In this document: piece by piece, positions 37,681 through 44,466 of the stretch | Numbering within the stretch: position 1 is the first letter of the stretch | Layout: each line of letters begins with the position of its first letter | Assembly: GCF_003752175.1 (NCBI RefSeq) | Contig: NZ_RJVF01000008.1 | Location: 248,001-312,000 of the forward strand | Source of the DNA: Comamonas sp. BIGb0124 | GTDB taxonomy: Bacteria > Pseudomonadota > Gammaproteobacteria > Burkholderiales > Burkholderiaceae_C | Direction of reading: 5' to 3' | Length of the DNA stretch: 64,000 bases | Made by a program: the position numbers and the translations under genes | Notes under the pieces: generated by a model | Told to the model about the DNA's origin: nothing | The model's input: only the letters and a program-made list of their open reading frames with translations | Databases searched by the model: none

Positions 37681-38757
37681 TCAGGCGGAAGGCGAAATGG
37701 CCCGATCGCGGGCATGATCGCCATGGTCATGCCCATGGCGATGGTCCTCCTGCCCGACGTGCCCCCAGAACAGCATGGCATCCCGTCCTGCGACCTCGAG
37801 GGTGACCGGCGCGCCCACCGGCAGCATCACCTTGGTCGGCACGTGACCGAAAGGCAGCCCCGTCAACACGGGCGTACGTGGCAATTGAGCCCGCAGCCAG
37901 TCGACCACGGTCTGCAGCTTGTAGCCCCGGTCGTGAGGTGTCAGCTTGAACGAGGTGAAGCTCCCCAGCACCACGGCAGCCTGCCGGGCCAGCACGCCGC
38001 TGAGCAGCAACTGGGTCAACATGCGCTCGATCTTGTAAGGATGTTCGCCCACGTCCTCGAGGAACAGCACCCCGCCCTCGACCGCCGGGAAATACGGCGA
38101 GCCGGCCAACGCGCACAGCACGGCAAGATTGCCGCCCCACAGCGTGGCATTCTGGATCGGCCGTTCCGCGACATCGGCCGGCAGGCTGTCGATATAACGC
38201 AGGTCCCCGGCCGGCAGCCGCCAGCCGGTGCCTTCGCCCTGCCCGCTGGTCATGTCGGCAAGACAGTCGGACATGAGTTCGTCGACGCCCTCTTCGGCGC
38301 CGAAATCCGCACCCAGCGCCGGACCGGCCCAGGTGACGGTCCCTTTTTGCGCCAGCATGGCCAGTTGCAGCGCGGTGAAATCGCTGTGACCCACGAACTG
38401 CGTGCCGCCCTCCACGGCGCGGTGCAGCAGTCCGTAGTCCAGGTGCGGCAGCAACCGGGTCAGGCCATAGCCGCCCCGGGTGATGATGGCGACATCCGCG
38501 CCGCTGGCCGCCGCACGGTGGATCGCCGCGACCCGGGTCTCGTCGTCCCCGGCAAAGCGCTGGACGCTCGCCAGGCTGTCGGGATCCAGATCGACCCGGT
38601 AGCCCTGGGCCTGAAGCCGTTTGACCGCCCTGCGCAGGGCCGCGCGGTCGCGCACGGCTCCCGACGGGGAAAAACCGTACAGCCGGATCGGGCGGGGTTC
38701 GGATGCGGCCAGGCGGGCGCAGTGGACGCAGGAATAATTCAACGCGGAGGAGTTCAT
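37681..38757 (-). CDS. ldcA: LD-carboxypeptidase (peptidase S66)
   Basis: 358 aa. Muramoyltetrapeptide LD-carboxypeptidase that removes the terminal D-Ala from peptidoglycan tetrapeptides during recycling in the cytoplasm. RGGYGLTRLLP and GHSDFTALQ (Ser125 as nucleophile) are typical, with GGNLAVL, FLEDVGE and PFGHVPTK carrying the remaining catalytic Glu and His. The C-terminus ends in a His/Asp-rich tail (HRHGHDHGDHARDR) that is not part of the family domain. Its end is close to the fusion gene's region upstream; both are on the minus strand. Confidence 0.88.
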   Translation of the reverse strand: MNSSALNYSCVHCARLAASEPRPIRLYGFSPSGAVRDRAALRRAVKRLQAQGYRVDLDPDSLASVQRFAGDDETRVAAIHRAAASGADVAIITRGGYGLTRLLPHLDYGLLHRAVEGGTQFVGHSDFTALQLAMLAQKGTVTWAGPALGADFGAEEGVDELMSDCLADMTSGQGEGTGWRLPAGDLRYIDSLPADVAERPIQNATLWGGNLAVLCALAGSPYFPAVEGGVLFLEDVGEHPYKIERMLTQLLLSGVLARQAAVVLGSFTSFKLTPHDRGYKLQTVVDWLRAQLPRTPVLTGLPFGHVPTKVMLPVGAPVTLEVAGRDAMLFWGHVGQEDHRHGHDHGDHARDRAISPSA

Positions 38758-38825
38758 GGTGCAAACAATCTGCAGGTCCGGCCCCAGATGCCGGCGACCC
38801 TTCGCCTGCACCCCAGGGGCGACCT

Positions 38826-40280
38826 TCAATGCCCGAAGTATGCCGCAGCGCGTGCCACGTCGGATGCGGCGAGCAGATCGTCCGGCTGTGCCCATGGATC
38901 GGATGCAGCCGCAGAAGCGGTGACACCGAATGCAGCCGGATCGACGATTGGACAGCCCGATGCATCGGCTTCGTGTTCTTCATGGGTCTGTGCAATTGCG
39001 GCGGCCGAGCCGCCCATGCCGCTTTCCGGAGCCGCTTGGGCGACCCGAGCCCACGCCGCCATGGCGACAAATGCGGCTTGGTGCCCCTTGTCCGGCCACG
39101 GCGCAGCCAGCGCCTGGGGCGAGAGCGCTCGCTTCGTCACCCCGGTCGGGTCGGGCTGGCTTCCACCAGGGGATGCATGCCTCGGCCCCGTGCCCGCGCG
39201 ACCCGACGCGTCCCGCGCTCGCAGCGCGGTGACCAACAAGGGGCGAGCGGCCAGGTCCTTCAGAAAAGCGGCGTGGTCGGGGGAAGGCCAGGGTGCGCCC
39301 TGGGGCAGCCGCCACAAGGCCCTCACCCGTCCGGACGCACGGCGCGCCGCGTCCAGCCCCAGCTCCGCACCGATTCCCTGCCCCAACACGACGGCCCGTT
39401 GCAGATCGCGTTCGGCCAGCAGCTCGACGAGGATCCGTGCATGCAAGGCCGGATGGTGGAACGCCGTCTTCTTCGGTTTGTCGCTGCGCCCGAACCCGAC
39501 CAGATCGGGAACGAGTATGCGCCGGGTCGACGGCTGGGCCTGAAGCCAGCCCAGCACCTTGGTGAAGCCGGCGCTCCAGCCCGGATGGCCATGGAGCAGC
39601 AGCCAGTCGACCGTGCCACCCGAGGGGCCATGGGCTTCCAGGTAGTGCAGCCGCAGTCCCGCCAGCGCAGGCAGGCTGCTGGTATAGCGCGACTCGGCAG
39701 GAGCGGCAAGCGCGAGTCCGGCAAAACACCCGTCGGGCGTGCGCAGCGCGTCCTGGCGCAAGGGGTGGCTGGCTTGGTGCAGGCATAGCGCCTGCTTCCT
39801 TTTGTCGCGGAAGAACCCCTGCAGCAAACCGGCACACGCCTGCGCCCATGTTTCGGCCTCCGGGCCCAGACCGGCGGCGGGCAGCACCCGGGTCTGGTGA
39901 TTGAGCTGGGCCACGGCAAAGGGATCGATCACCGACCCTGCCGCCCCGGTGCGCGGCTCGGGCACGGCATAGATCACCTGAGCGACCCGTGCATGGAGCA
40001 TGGCGCCGGCGCACATCGTGCAGGGCTCGAGCGTGATGTAGACACGGCAGCCGTCGAGCCGGTAGTTGCCCAGACAGGCGGCGGCCTGCCGCAGGGCCTG
40101 GATCTCGGCATGCGCGGTCGGGTCGTGGTTGGCGATCGGCGCGTTGTGTCCGCGGCCGATGATGCGCCCTTGCGCGTCGCACACCACGGCGCCGATCGGC
40201 ACCTCGCCCGCGGCGGCGGCAAGCCGGGCCTGCTCGAGCGCGGCCTGCATCGGAATCGAGTGGGATAAACGGTCGTCCAT
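38826..40280 (-). CDS. tadA: TadA tRNA adenosine deaminase fused to an alpha/beta-hydrolase-like domain
   Basis: 484 aa. Residues 1-165 are a complete TadA: HAE (His57, Glu59) and PCTMC (Cys87, Cys90) form the zinc site that deaminates A34 to inosine in tRNA-Arg. From about residue 195 a second domain reads as an alpha/beta hydrolase of the dehalogenase-like kind: LLLHGHPGWSAGF (oxyanion region), LVPDLVGFGRSDKPKKTAF and the elbow VVLGQGIGAELGLDAA. In the elbow the nucleophile position is Gly302, where Ser or Asp is expected, so the domain looks catalytically dead. Start 40280 follows usual TadA length. Known TadA proteins are usually about 150-180 aa. Confidence 0.87.
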   Translation of the reverse strand: MDDRLSHSIPMQAALEQARLAAAAGEVPIGAVVCDAQGRIIGRGHNAPIANHDPTAHAEIQALRQAAACLGNYRLDGCRVYITLEPCTMCAGAMLHARVAQVIYAVPEPRTGAAGSVIDPFAVAQLNHQTRVLPAAGLGPEAETWAQACAGLLQGFFRDKRKQALCLHQASHPLRQDALRTPDGCFAGLALAAPAESRYTSSLPALAGLRLHYLEAHGPSGGTVDWLLLHGHPGWSAGFTKVLGWLQAQPSTRRILVPDLVGFGRSDKPKKTAFHHPALHARILVELLAERDLQRAVVLGQGIGAELGLDAARRASGRVRALWRLPQGAPWPSPDHAAFLKDLAARPLLVTALRARDASGRAGTGPRHASPGGSQPDPTGVTKRALSPQALAAPWPDKGHQAAFVAMAAWARVAQAAPESGMGGSAAAIAQTHEEHEADASGCPIVDPAAFGVTASAAASDPWAQPDDLLAASDVARAAAYFGH

Positions 40281-40359: not shown

Positions 40360-40836
40360 ATGAAACTCACCTTACTCGTTGGCACCATGAGCGACACGGC
40401 CTGGCAAGTCGCACAGGCCATGGAAATGGCCGCAGCAGACCACGTCGCCGAGATCGAGGTCCGTCGCCTCGATGCATCCGACAGCCCCGAACTGTTCCAG
40501 GCCGGCCCCGATCACGCTTACATCGTCTGCACATCCACCTTCGGCAGTGGCGATCTGCCCGACAACGCCCAGCCGCTCTATCACGCGCTGGATGCCCAAC
40601 CCCGCTACCTGGGCGGCGTGCGCTACGGTGTCGTGGCGTTGGGCGACAGCGGTTTCGGCGAGACGTTCGCCCGTGGTGGCCGGCTTTTCGACGAACGCCT
40701 GGCCGATCTCGGCGCCGTCCGTGTCGGCGAACTGCTGGTCATCGACGCCTGCAGTGCGGACGATGCCGAAGAAGCGGCTTCGGCCTGGATCGAGTCCTGG
40801 CTCGAAGCCTTGCAGAAGTTGCCTGCCGACGTGTAA
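40360..40836 (+). CDS. MioC-like flavodoxin
   Basis: 158 aa. The FMN phosphate-binding loop is VGTMSDTAWQVAQ at the N-terminus, with STFGSGDLPDNA and VVALGDSGFGETF forming the flavin contacts. These flavodoxin-fold proteins carry electrons in the cytoplasm. The start at 40360 gives the typical MKLTLLVGTMS beginning, with the frame open upstream. Divergent from the tadA fusion gene, 79 bases apart. Confidence 0.87.
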   Translation: MKLTLLVGTMSDTAWQVAQAMEMAAADHVAEIEVRRLDASDSPELFQAGPDHAYIVCTSTFGSGDLPDNAQPLYHALDAQPRYLGGVRYGVVALGDSGFGETFARGGRLFDERLADLGAVRVGELLVIDACSADDAEEAASAWIESWLEALQKLPADV

Positions 40837-42273: not shown

Positions 42274-44466
42274 TCAGGCCACCTCGACCGTGAACGAGTA
42301 GCGGTTGGTGGCGCTGCCGTCCGGCGAAGTCACCTCGACGACGATCCTGCTGCCTGCCGAAACCGGCACCACCGTGCGGCTGGACTGCGCCACCGCGGCG
42401 CCGTTGACCTTCAGCCCGCTCGCCTTGTTGGACATGGCACGGGGTCGGATCGCCACGCTGCGCTGTCCGGCCGGCACTTTCAGGCGGTAGTCGAAGGTCC
42501 ACGGATCGAACTTGTTCGGCAGCACGTTCGGCGTCCCGTTGGCGGGCGCTGCCCAGTACACGTTCACACCCACCAGCGTGGCTTGCTCGAACTCGACGTT
42601 GCTCAGCGTGGCGTACTTGCGGTAGCCGTTGTCCACGTTGTAGTCGATGCCGATGCCGTTCGGATAATCCACCGTCGGCTTGCTGAGGTAATCGACGGGC
42701 TTGCCGTAGCCGCTGCCGATGGGGCCGATGGCCATCCAGTTCTTGTCGCGCCACATGTCGCCCACGATACTCATGCGGTTGGCGATGCCGCCGCGGATGG
42801 ACGGCTTGGACGCGGCGTCGCCCTCGTCGATCAGTTGCTGGAAACACTGCACGAAGTTGTCCACGCAAGCCATGCCCACGGGCACCTCCTGGTGAGCATT
42901 GGTGACCTCCACGATCTGGCCGTCGACGATGCGTTTGCGGTAATCGGCCAGCAACTGCAGCGTCAGCGACAGGAACAGATCGACCTTGACGGACGAATAC
43001 TGCGTGGTGTCCGCCGTCGTCGGGCGGTTGCAGCCCCACATGTCGGAGCCGAACACCCAGCCGGCCTCATGCACCACCGCCGTCACCGTGCCGTTGGTGT
43101 GGCCCGGGATGATGAAAATGCTGACCTTGCTGCTGCCCAGGTCGAACGTGTGGCCATCCGGCACGGCAATCGCCGCCGTTCCCGCCGCACGGCGATTGGC
43201 ATTGCTGTCGGCCATGAAAGCGGCTTTTTCGATGCCCGAACAATAGAACGGGATACCGGCCGAGGTGAAGTTGTAGATCTGCGACGAGTGATCGGAGTGG
43301 TTATGACCCACGATCATGTCATAGGGTTTGGTCGCAATCGAATCGACGAAGGACTTGAGATTGGCTTTATCCGGCGAAATCTGGCCGCAATCGAATACTA
43401 AACCGCGCGTGCTGCCTTCGATGTAATAGACGAAAGGCCCGAGATTCTCTGCCTTGTTGAATATCTTCCAGACCTTGGGCTTGGCGCCCGATGCTTCATG
43501 GTAAACGGTGGCCTGGTATTCGGCCGTATCGGGCACACCTGTTTTCCAGAAGAACTCCCGCACCACGCTGGGCTCGAGATCGTCGCGCACGGCCACCGCT
43601 TTCAGGCGCACCGTGCCGTTGGACGCGTACTGCAGCACGCCCTGTGCATAGAAGTCGTAAAGCCGGCCGCTGCTCAGCGGATCGGCCGGCTCGCTGCCGT
43701 CGGTCGTGACGGTGTAGTAGATCGCAGCGCCGGCCGTCGGCGTGGAAATGCGGATGAAGCGGCGCGGCGCGGTCGTGCCCGACTTGCACATCACCTGAGG
43801 CGGCGAGGTCAGCCGGCCCGTGATGGCCTTGAGCACCGCTTCGGCCTCGGCGACCGTGATCTGGGCCTTGGGCGAGAAGGCCGTGGCACTGGTTCCCTGC
43901 ATGTAGCCGGCGCCGACCAGCGCATTGACCGATGCCCGGTATTCCTCGCCGATCTGAGCGGCATCGCTGAAAATCGATAGCGCATCGGCTTGCGTCGTGG
44001 TGATGCCGAAAGCCTTGGCGTACACCCCGGCGGCCCACTCGCGGGTCGCGTCGGCGTCGGGCGCGAAAGCGGTGCCTGCGTTGCCGATCACCGACTCTTC
44101 CAGCGCCGTCTCGATCTGCCGCGAGTACGGGGTCTGGTCCAGCACCACATCGCTGTACTTCGGCTGCACCGCCTTGTACTGGTCGTTGTACGACGACGAA
44201 TGCACCCAGTCGAAGTGATCGGCCACGGTGGCCACGAAGGCGCCACGGGCCAGCGCCGGCGCGCCCGCGACCGGCGGCGTCACCGGTGCCTCGTCGTCGT
44301 TCGATCCACCCCCCAGGCAACCCGCAAGCATCATGGACGGAGCGGCCAGCATCGGCAATCCCAGCATTCTGGAAAACGCCCGGCGGGACATCCCCGTGCG
44401 TTCCGCAATCGTGTTCGAACCACTGTCCTGATTTGCGCCTGGGCTTGTCTCGAAGGTTTTTCGCAT
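42274..44466 (-). CDS. Metallo-beta-lactamase-fold lipoprotein with SLH-like repeats
   Basis: 730 aa. An RRAFSRMLG twin-arginine-like motif precedes the lipobox LAGCLGG, indicating export and lipidation. Residues about 85-215 contain SLH-like segments (FAPDADATREWAAGVYAKAFGI, GYMQGTSATAFSPKAQITVAE), usually a cell-surface anchoring module. A beta-sandwich of the chitobiase/FN3 type follows. The MBL domain (about 340-600) has the zinc motif HNHSDH, then HTNGTVTAVV and a distal DMWG. A cadherin-like tail closes it (PAGQRSVAIRPRAMS). An AGGAAT ribosome site supports 44466. Hydrolase of unknown substrate, probably controlled by the divergent IclR regulator. Confidence 0.8.
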   Translation of the reverse strand: MRKTFETSPGANQDSGSNTIAERTGMSRRAFSRMLGLPMLAAPSMMLAGCLGGGSNDDEAPVTPPVAGAPALARGAFVATVADHFDWVHSSSYNDQYKAVQPKYSDVVLDQTPYSRQIETALEESVIGNAGTAFAPDADATREWAAGVYAKAFGITTTQADALSIFSDAAQIGEEYRASVNALVGAGYMQGTSATAFSPKAQITVAEAEAVLKAITGRLTSPPQVMCKSGTTAPRRFIRISTPTAGAAIYYTVTTDGSEPADPLSSGRLYDFYAQGVLQYASNGTVRLKAVAVRDDLEPSVVREFFWKTGVPDTAEYQATVYHEASGAKPKVWKIFNKAENLGPFVYYIEGSTRGLVFDCGQISPDKANLKSFVDSIATKPYDMIVGHNHSDHSSQIYNFTSAGIPFYCSGIEKAAFMADSNANRRAAGTAAIAVPDGHTFDLGSSKVSIFIIPGHTNGTVTAVVHEAGWVFGSDMWGCNRPTTADTTQYSSVKVDLFLSLTLQLLADYRKRIVDGQIVEVTNAHQEVPVGMACVDNFVQCFQQLIDEGDAASKPSIRGGIANRMSIVGDMWRDKNWMAIGPIGSGYGKPVDYLSKPTVDYPNGIGIDYNVDNGYRKYATLSNVEFEQATLVGVNVYWAAPANGTPNVLPNKFDPWTFDYRLKVPAGQRSVAIRPRAMSNKASGLKVNGAAVAQSSRTVVPVSAGSRIVVEVTSPDGSATNRYSFTVEVA

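Follow-up and report, generated by a model that had tools for sequence, protein, structure and literature searches.

A tadA gene that continues into a hydrolase-like domain

The window, i.e. the whole stretch of 64,000 nucleotides from Comamonas sp. BIGb0124 analysed here, carries a gene in which the tRNA adenosine deaminase TadA is followed in frame by a second domain (Table 1). A previous sequence-only reading had described an intact deaminase that runs on into a hydrolase-like domain, without naming the strand. Translation of the minus strand bears this out, as the 484 codons contain no internal stop and both His57-Ala-Glu59 and Pro86-Cys87-Thr-Met-Cys90 are present. The HGHPG motif and PDLVGFGRSDKPKK, the latter starting at residue 258, which that reading had also picked out, were likewise found in the translation.

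Table 1. Features of the fusion gene and of its two neighbours (positions refer to the window)
Feature	Position	Strand	Evidence
tadA-HLD fusion gene, 484 aa plus stop	38826..40280	minus	translation without internal stop; Pfam/NCBIfam
TadA domain, residues 1-165, HAE and PCTMC	39786..40280	minus	NCBIfam PRK10860; fold match 1z3a_A
Join block LRQDALRTP, residues 174-182, corresponding to the N-terminus of stand-alone HLDs	39735..39761	minus	alignment
HLD-I-derived domain, residues 176-484	38829..39755	minus	NCBIfam, structure model
HGHPG, residues 230-234 (HGNP in most intact fusions)	39579..39593	minus	translation, alignment
Block A, PDLVGFGRSDKPKKTAFHHPALH, residues 258-280	39441..39509	minus	alignment, dN/dS
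Dead nucleophile elbow GQGIG, residues 300-304	39369..39383	minus	translation, alignment
Block B, APWPDKGHQAAF, residues 393-404	39069..39104	minus	alignment
LD-carboxypeptidase (S66), downstream neighbour outside the fusion, predicted start	37681..38763	minus	Pfam PF02016/PF17676
Flavodoxin-like protein, divergent upstream neighbour outside the fusion, predicted start	40363..40836	plus	Pfam PF00258

The TadA part reaches 155 bits against NCBIfam PRK10860 (cut-off 150), and its model superimposes on 1z3a_A with a Z score of 23.8 and an rmsd of 2.3 over 155 aligned residues. The second domain scores 38.7 bits against Pfam Abhydrolase_1 (cut-off 25.8), which places it in the alpha/beta-hydrolase sequence family. 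Its best NCBIfam model is the haloalkane dehalogenase PRK00870, with 84.6 bits far under the cut-off of 265. The only congener examined has the same fused architecture, is 61% identical and also carries Gly in its elbow (QGLG). Judged by the two profile scores above their cut-offs and by the likewise fused congener, the architecture is not a product of chance. The fusion is the sole tadA found in its own genome, the two next matches covering about 100 residues at 34% identity, and the genome contains two genes for tRNA-Arg(ACG), the classical substrate of TadA. In E. coli, TadA is described as essential (PMC3711424).

Elsewhere in the window, positions 42277-44466 of the minus strand encode a protein of 730 residues with S-layer homology, chitobiase-C-like and cadherin-like domains. 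The motif HNHSDH half-way through this protein suggests, by eye, a metallo-beta-lactamase fold.

Distribution of the fusion in the family

Among 399 genomes sampled from the family of the window (coded f1), 379 have a TadA match above the chosen threshold and at least 209 contain the fusion, a count that is a lower bound because the fusions were fetched in part. The aligned set comprises 222 proteins, i.e. 208 from f1 genomes, the window protein, one from a genome of another family (coded f3) and 12 from named contigs (Ottowia, Rhodoferax, Comamonadaceae, Burkholderiales and others). The idea of a hidden group of fusions devoid of block A was discarded: one representative from each of 56 seemingly unfused genera was read to its stop codon, and in 55 of them the protein ends no more than 66 residues past the TadA domain, the exception, G103, being a fusion. 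On a quick TadA tree with approximately one row per genus, in which only four branches are starred as well supported, the fused label changes five times, compared with 44 times when labels are shuffled.

The fused domain descends from a haloalkane dehalogenase and has repeatedly lost catalysis

In the intact relative L014, nearly the entire fused domain can be aligned with the haloalkane dehalogenases (HLDs) DppA (2xt0; E 1.7e-110) and DhlA (E 8.7e-100), and DpaA (7avr) aligns as well. The two intact fusions that were scanned, L014 and L314, pass the PRK00870 cut-off of 265 with 324 and 347 bits, respectively. In all 89 intact rows, with that of f3 excluded, nucleophile Asp, adjoining Trp, cap Trp, acid Asp and His occupy their five columns. 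The intact set was defined on four of these columns (Asp, Trp, Asp, His), the cap Trp being no criterion. Moreover, the aligned region starts with the N-terminus of the enzymes themselves, which reads ALRTP in the fusion and AIRTP in DhlA, and therefore a whole HLD was added behind TadA. Homology thus defined shows the fused domain to descend from a subfamily-I (DhlA/DppA-type) HLD, an origin that had not been foreseen from the window alone. Like DhlA, DppA and DpaA, the intact fusions have approximately the whole enzyme length and all catalytic residues. The window protein retains a recognisable N-terminal half and block B but differs from these enzymes in lacking nucleophile, adjoining Trp, acid and His, as it does in its low PRK00870 score. 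Its nucleophile column is Gly302, which aligns with the Asp of intact relatives, Ile303 takes the place of Trp, the column of the catalytic acid is a gap and the His column holds Asp.

This state is common. The complete Asp/Trp/Asp/His set is kept in 90 of the 222 fusions and broken in 132, which are called dead in the following. The nucleophile Asp is missing in 121 of the 222, and nucleophile, acid and His are all missing in 106. Across the dead copies, the nucleophile column holds Pro (41), Gly (37), Asp, Glu or Ala (11 each), while the acid Asp and the His persist in 16 and 13 copies, respectively. Dead forms occur from 335 residues upwards, and intact forms are mostly near 459-473 residues. 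Comparison of the window protein with its congener gives identities of 10/10 at the join, 18/24 in the block A region, 11/16 in the block B region and 104/160 in TadA, and of 22/48 in the elbow region, 7/45 in the cap and 17/55 in the tail.

Both intact and dead members are present in 11 coded genera. In ten of these at least one member is devoid of the nucleophile; in the remaining one, g154, Asp is kept and Trp, acid and His are gone. Since 11 genera are mixed, at least 11 separate losses have to be assumed, given that the coded genera are natural groups and that the intact state is ancestral, as follows from the homology to working HLDs. A tree of TadA plus join (221 rows) yields 33 state changes, of which seven are forced by well-supported (starred) branches. 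In several genera all fetched members are dead, e.g. 5/5 in g85, g95, g75 and g24. By this comparison of genera, the losses are shown to have recurred, about 11 times or more.

These data bear on what the sequence-only reading had made of the elbow. Its GQGIG motif with Gly at the nucleophile position and its assignment of the domain as a pseudoenzyme both agree with the alignment. It had proposed to look across relatives for the fusion and for a conserved Gly elbow: the fusion is indeed widespread, whereas Gly is not conserved among the dead copies, though the congener has it. It had further held that a normal elbow in relatives would mark the window copy as a random defect, a test that fails as worded because relatives show both states and the losses are recurrent.

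Three blocks outlast the loss of catalysis

Three blocks persist in the 132 dead domains, namely LRxDALR at the join, PDLxGxGxSDKPKKxxxH (block A) and PxPDxGH (block B). In the numbering of L014, Arg168, Asp243, Gly246, Gly248, Ser250, Asp251 and Lys/Arg254 are found in all 132, followed by Pro253 (131), Lys/Arg255 and His259 (128 each) and His264 (125). In block B the counts are 122 for Pro361, 124 for Pro363, 125 for Asp364, 129 for Gly366 and 131 for His/Tyr/Phe367. Restricting the set to one dead row per genus (51 rows) gives the same picture, and a search with loose patterns recovers block A in all 132 dead domains and block B in 117. In 88 intact rows 100 positions are near-invariant. 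Those outside the blocks (77) show a median retention of 23% in the dead domains, compared with 97% over the 14 positions of block A, 92% over the five of block B and 97% over the four at the join. Blocks A and B were delimited after viewing the alignment, and these retention tests are thus descriptive, not blind. Some block positions are weaker (Phe261 is kept in 5%, Arg368 in 66% and Lys255 as Lys in 77%), and some positions outside the blocks are retained to at least 85% (Phe174, Gly195, Arg197, His199, Leu215, His216, Trp221, Gly236, Arg238 and Leu268). Lys, Arg or His make up 10 of 30 kept and 8 of 70 lost positions, a weak and post hoc difference (p 0.02; p 0.20 for Lys/Arg alone), and hydrophobic or aromatic residues make up 7 of 30 kept as compared to 36 of 70 lost positions (p 0.015).

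Since block A includes a turn that is a classical structural element of alpha/beta hydrolases, its retention could partly reflect upkeep of the fold. The two positions following SDKP are more telling. None of the 22 stand-alone HLDs examined has KK there; they read VD (9), VE (4), AD (3), ED (2) and TE, VQ, RD and TD (one each), and VD or AD is also what the f3 fusions show. In the 89 intact rows (f3 row excluded) the first position is Lys throughout and the second is Lys in 87 and Arg in two. Most simply, the pair would have arisen in the fused f1 lineage with the catalytic residues still in place and would then have outlived their loss. It is mainly because of this order of events, gain before loss and retention thereafter, that we prefer a new non-catalytic function to upkeep of the fold.

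To quantify selection, dN/dS was calculated from close pairs, using each protein once and bootstrap intervals, for 33 dead and 34 intact pairs. In intact pairs the values are 0.206 for TadA, 0.084 for the join, 0.121 for block A and 0.055 for block B, and 0.160 for positions 171-240, 0.176 for the elbow region, 0.165 for the cap and 0.254 for the tail. The corresponding values in dead pairs are 0.169, 0.067, 0.118 and 0.108, and 0.277, 0.347, 0.407 (cap remnant) and 0.399. Relative to TadA, dN/dS thus rises from 0.86 in intact to 2.05 in dead pairs in the elbow and from 0.80 to 2.41 in the cap, and hardly changes in block A (0.59 to 0.70). Block B is somewhat relaxed, from 0.27 to 0.64, and still lies under TadA. 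Elbow, cap and tail of the dead domains also remain well below 1. A constraint on the DNA itself was considered as a cause of block retention and rejected, the synonymous difference of dead pairs in blocks A (0.352) and B (0.380) not being below that in TadA (0.336). Because synonymous change in the blocks is not depressed, the constraint acts on the protein.

Tail-less, split and rebuilt relatives

Four genomes of fused genera that score like unfused ones (G180, G202, G323 and G387) were chosen by eye. In G180 (L401, genus g31), TadA stops just before the join, and 132 bases remain to the end of the contig. No dehalogenase-like reading was found in these 132 bases after the stop (best alignment 12 residues, E 0.29), nor was a close HLD found elsewhere in this genome, which gave only weak hydrolase matches of 36% identity or less. 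The three other aligned members of g31 (L017, L208 and L227) are intact fusions. Hence, in G180 either the tail appears to have been lost as a whole or the gene to have been replaced, and because its TadA is tail-less, that lineage can do without the tail, which is useful at most. Further losses of the whole tail may account for some of the unfused genera. As to the other three genomes, G202 keeps the join block and is then cut by the contig end, G323 has TadA and an SDKPKK-bearing domain in different frames, and G387 is fused, with SDQPKK and PYPNPGHRA. In the G103 fusion (L386/L399), LREDALR, PDLLGHGLSDKPRR (with SDKPRR) and APYPDAGH are kept, and the dehalogenase remnant is otherwise replaced or expanded by long variable Ala/Gly-rich stretches.

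Predicted structures

An AlphaFold2 model of the short Rhodoferax fusion L036 (356 residues; mean pLDDT 82.7) has an ordered alpha/beta core at residues 187-312 and a C-terminal end below 50. In a Foldseek search this model matched TadA structures as well as HLDs (2xt0; DhlA 1b6g over 139 columns with an rmsd of 2.3). The model of the window protein has a mean pLDDT of 70.3 and a pTM of 0.53, with residues 349-470 mostly below 50 and blocks A and B of middling to low confidence; because of this low confidence its domain placement is unreliable. In two further fold comparisons the listed matches all fell on the TadA half, which makes them uninformative for the other half.

A putative non-catalytic role of the fused domain in TadA function

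On balance, we lean towards the reading that the tail was recruited to a non-catalytic role in TadA function, perhaps in contact with tRNA or a partner, that dehalogenation thereby became dispensable and that it was lost many times. A role in tRNA or protein binding had been surmised from the window alone; the selection pattern among its dead relatives points to a role that is non-catalytic. According to this scenario, an ancestor of some members of the betaproteobacterial family would have acquired a subfamily-I HLD at the C-terminus of its TadA. With its catalytic residues still present, the fused domain would have gained SDKPKKxxxH and a second, non-catalytic job in TadA function, after which dehalogenation could be dispensed with and would have disappeared in many independent events. 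In the lineage of the window, Asp would have changed to Gly and Trp to Ile at the elbow, and acid and His would have gone. Join block, block A and block B would then be the parts needed for the second job, held by purifying selection at least as strong as that on TadA. As the likeliest job we envisage a basic surface beside the C-terminal helix of TadA, which the HLD-derived domain directly adjoins, that may contact tRNA-Arg(ACG) or a partner protein. Of single targets the tRNA would be the likeliest, although we give it less than an even chance. A more far-reaching version holds that the tRNA-editing enzyme captured a catabolic dehalogenase as a module for handling tRNA, and that this module acquired an RNA-contacting basic loop (SDKPKKxxxH) prior to the loss of catalysis, which then occurred in parallel in ten or more lineages and left some remnants of only about 190 residues, so that the family would hold every stage from enzyme to binding domain; this version is possible and, to our minds, rather doubtful.

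The alternative that deserves most attention assumes no second function at all: the kept blocks would be the folding core of a remnant that merely stays soluble and harmless to TadA while catalysis decays neutrally. The compact alpha/beta core predicted for L036 and its alignment to DhlA, the known structural turn within block A and the existence of G180 without a tail would all fit such a view. However, at the KK pair and His259 the fusions depart from most stand-alone enzymes; these residues are nevertheless kept in 128-132 of the 132 dead domains, and the stand-alone enzymes give no hint that the fold needs them. In addition, hydrophobic positions decayed more than others, and in G103 the surroundings were rebuilt with the blocks unchanged. 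We therefore regard a mere folding core as unlikely. Alternatively, the blocks might bind a metal or a small ligand through Asp243, Asp251, His259, His264, Asp364 and His367 and regulate TadA as a sensor. Few residues are kept as well as these acidic and His residues, but their closeness in space would be conjectural, and such a sensor appears improbable. Still less credible is the idea that the dead forms, including the window protein, are enzymes with a changed mechanism: partial sets do occur, i.e. Asp-Asp-Asp-His in two rows (L207 and L223) and Gly-Leu-Asp-His in four, yet 106 of the 132 are devoid of nucleophile, acid and His together, and the window protein reads Gly, Ile, gap, Asp. A private sequencing or mutational defect of the window strain, which the normal Asp elbow of intact relatives might suggest, is rejected in view of the Gly elbow in the congener and of genera that are wholly dead among their fetched members.

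Relation to known systems

In its residues 1-165 the window protein resembles the TadA enzymes of E. coli (1z3a) and S. aureus (2b3j) with respect to zinc motif, PRK10860 score and fold, but solved TadA chains are shorter than about 190 residues, whereas the window protein has some 300 extra residues of dehalogenase origin. The eukaryotic wobble deaminase ADAT2/ADAT3 combines a catalytic deaminase with a partner that has lost catalysis and with additional domains that position the tRNA. The likeness we propose is one of working only, as the extra domain is non-homologous and the dead part of ADAT2/ADAT3 belongs to the deaminases, too. In general, pseudoenzyme domains are inactive enzyme folds held by selection, and one attached to a working enzyme is of an already known kind. 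The TadA-HLD family differs in that its many independent losses are natural replicates that single out the kept positions. As far as can be searched, three aspects are new, namely that TadA is paired with an HLD, how often catalysis was lost independently and how sharply the kept blocks are delimited: no paper naming a TadA-dehalogenase fusion was among the matches listed in a search of open PMC titles and abstract starts, and queries for the two names together gave none. One described use case of a dehalogenase-mining tool discards sequences with additional Pfam domains (PMC13355053), and this could be part of the reason why the fusion has been overlooked.

If our reading is correct, the family represents a natural series with many independent repeats that leads from an enzyme to a binding domain attached to an RNA-modifying enzyme. 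Ahead of experiment, these repeats indicate which residues carry the new function. A further consequence is that a dehalogenase match in a genome of this kind may belong to a TadA protein. As TadA is described as the parent of adenine base editors, a natural accessory domain of this enzyme could have practical use.

Other extensions of TadA in the order

Fusions were also found in four f3 genomes (L318-L321), where TadA is followed by an HLD without the KK pair. In an HLD tree, these fusions branch within the stand-alone HLDs, apart from the f1 fusions. The tree favours two fusion events, which makes the f3 case a possible second fusion, but the test does not reject a single clade of all fusions (p-AU 0.176). 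A search of 399 genomes of the order with the f3 fusion also gave matches in families other than f1 and f3; all but two of these were fetched, and the 22 loci, none longer than about 4 kb, contain HLDs and no TadA.

A different extension is present in L315 (G039, same order, other family). Here, in a stop-to-stop frame that starts at locus base 1953 on the plus strand, TadA is followed in frame by a domain of the tyrosine-phosphatase family PF13350 (197.9 bits) with the motif HCTAGKDRTG. The short tails of unfused TadA proteins in f1 (L302-L313 and L355-L398 except L386) carry a conserved motif, [IVL]PxG[EDQV], which is found in 42 of 55 genera, as compared to a mean of 0.6 for shuffled tails. 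It often continues as xxLD and occupies the place that the dehalogenase domain takes in the fused genera.
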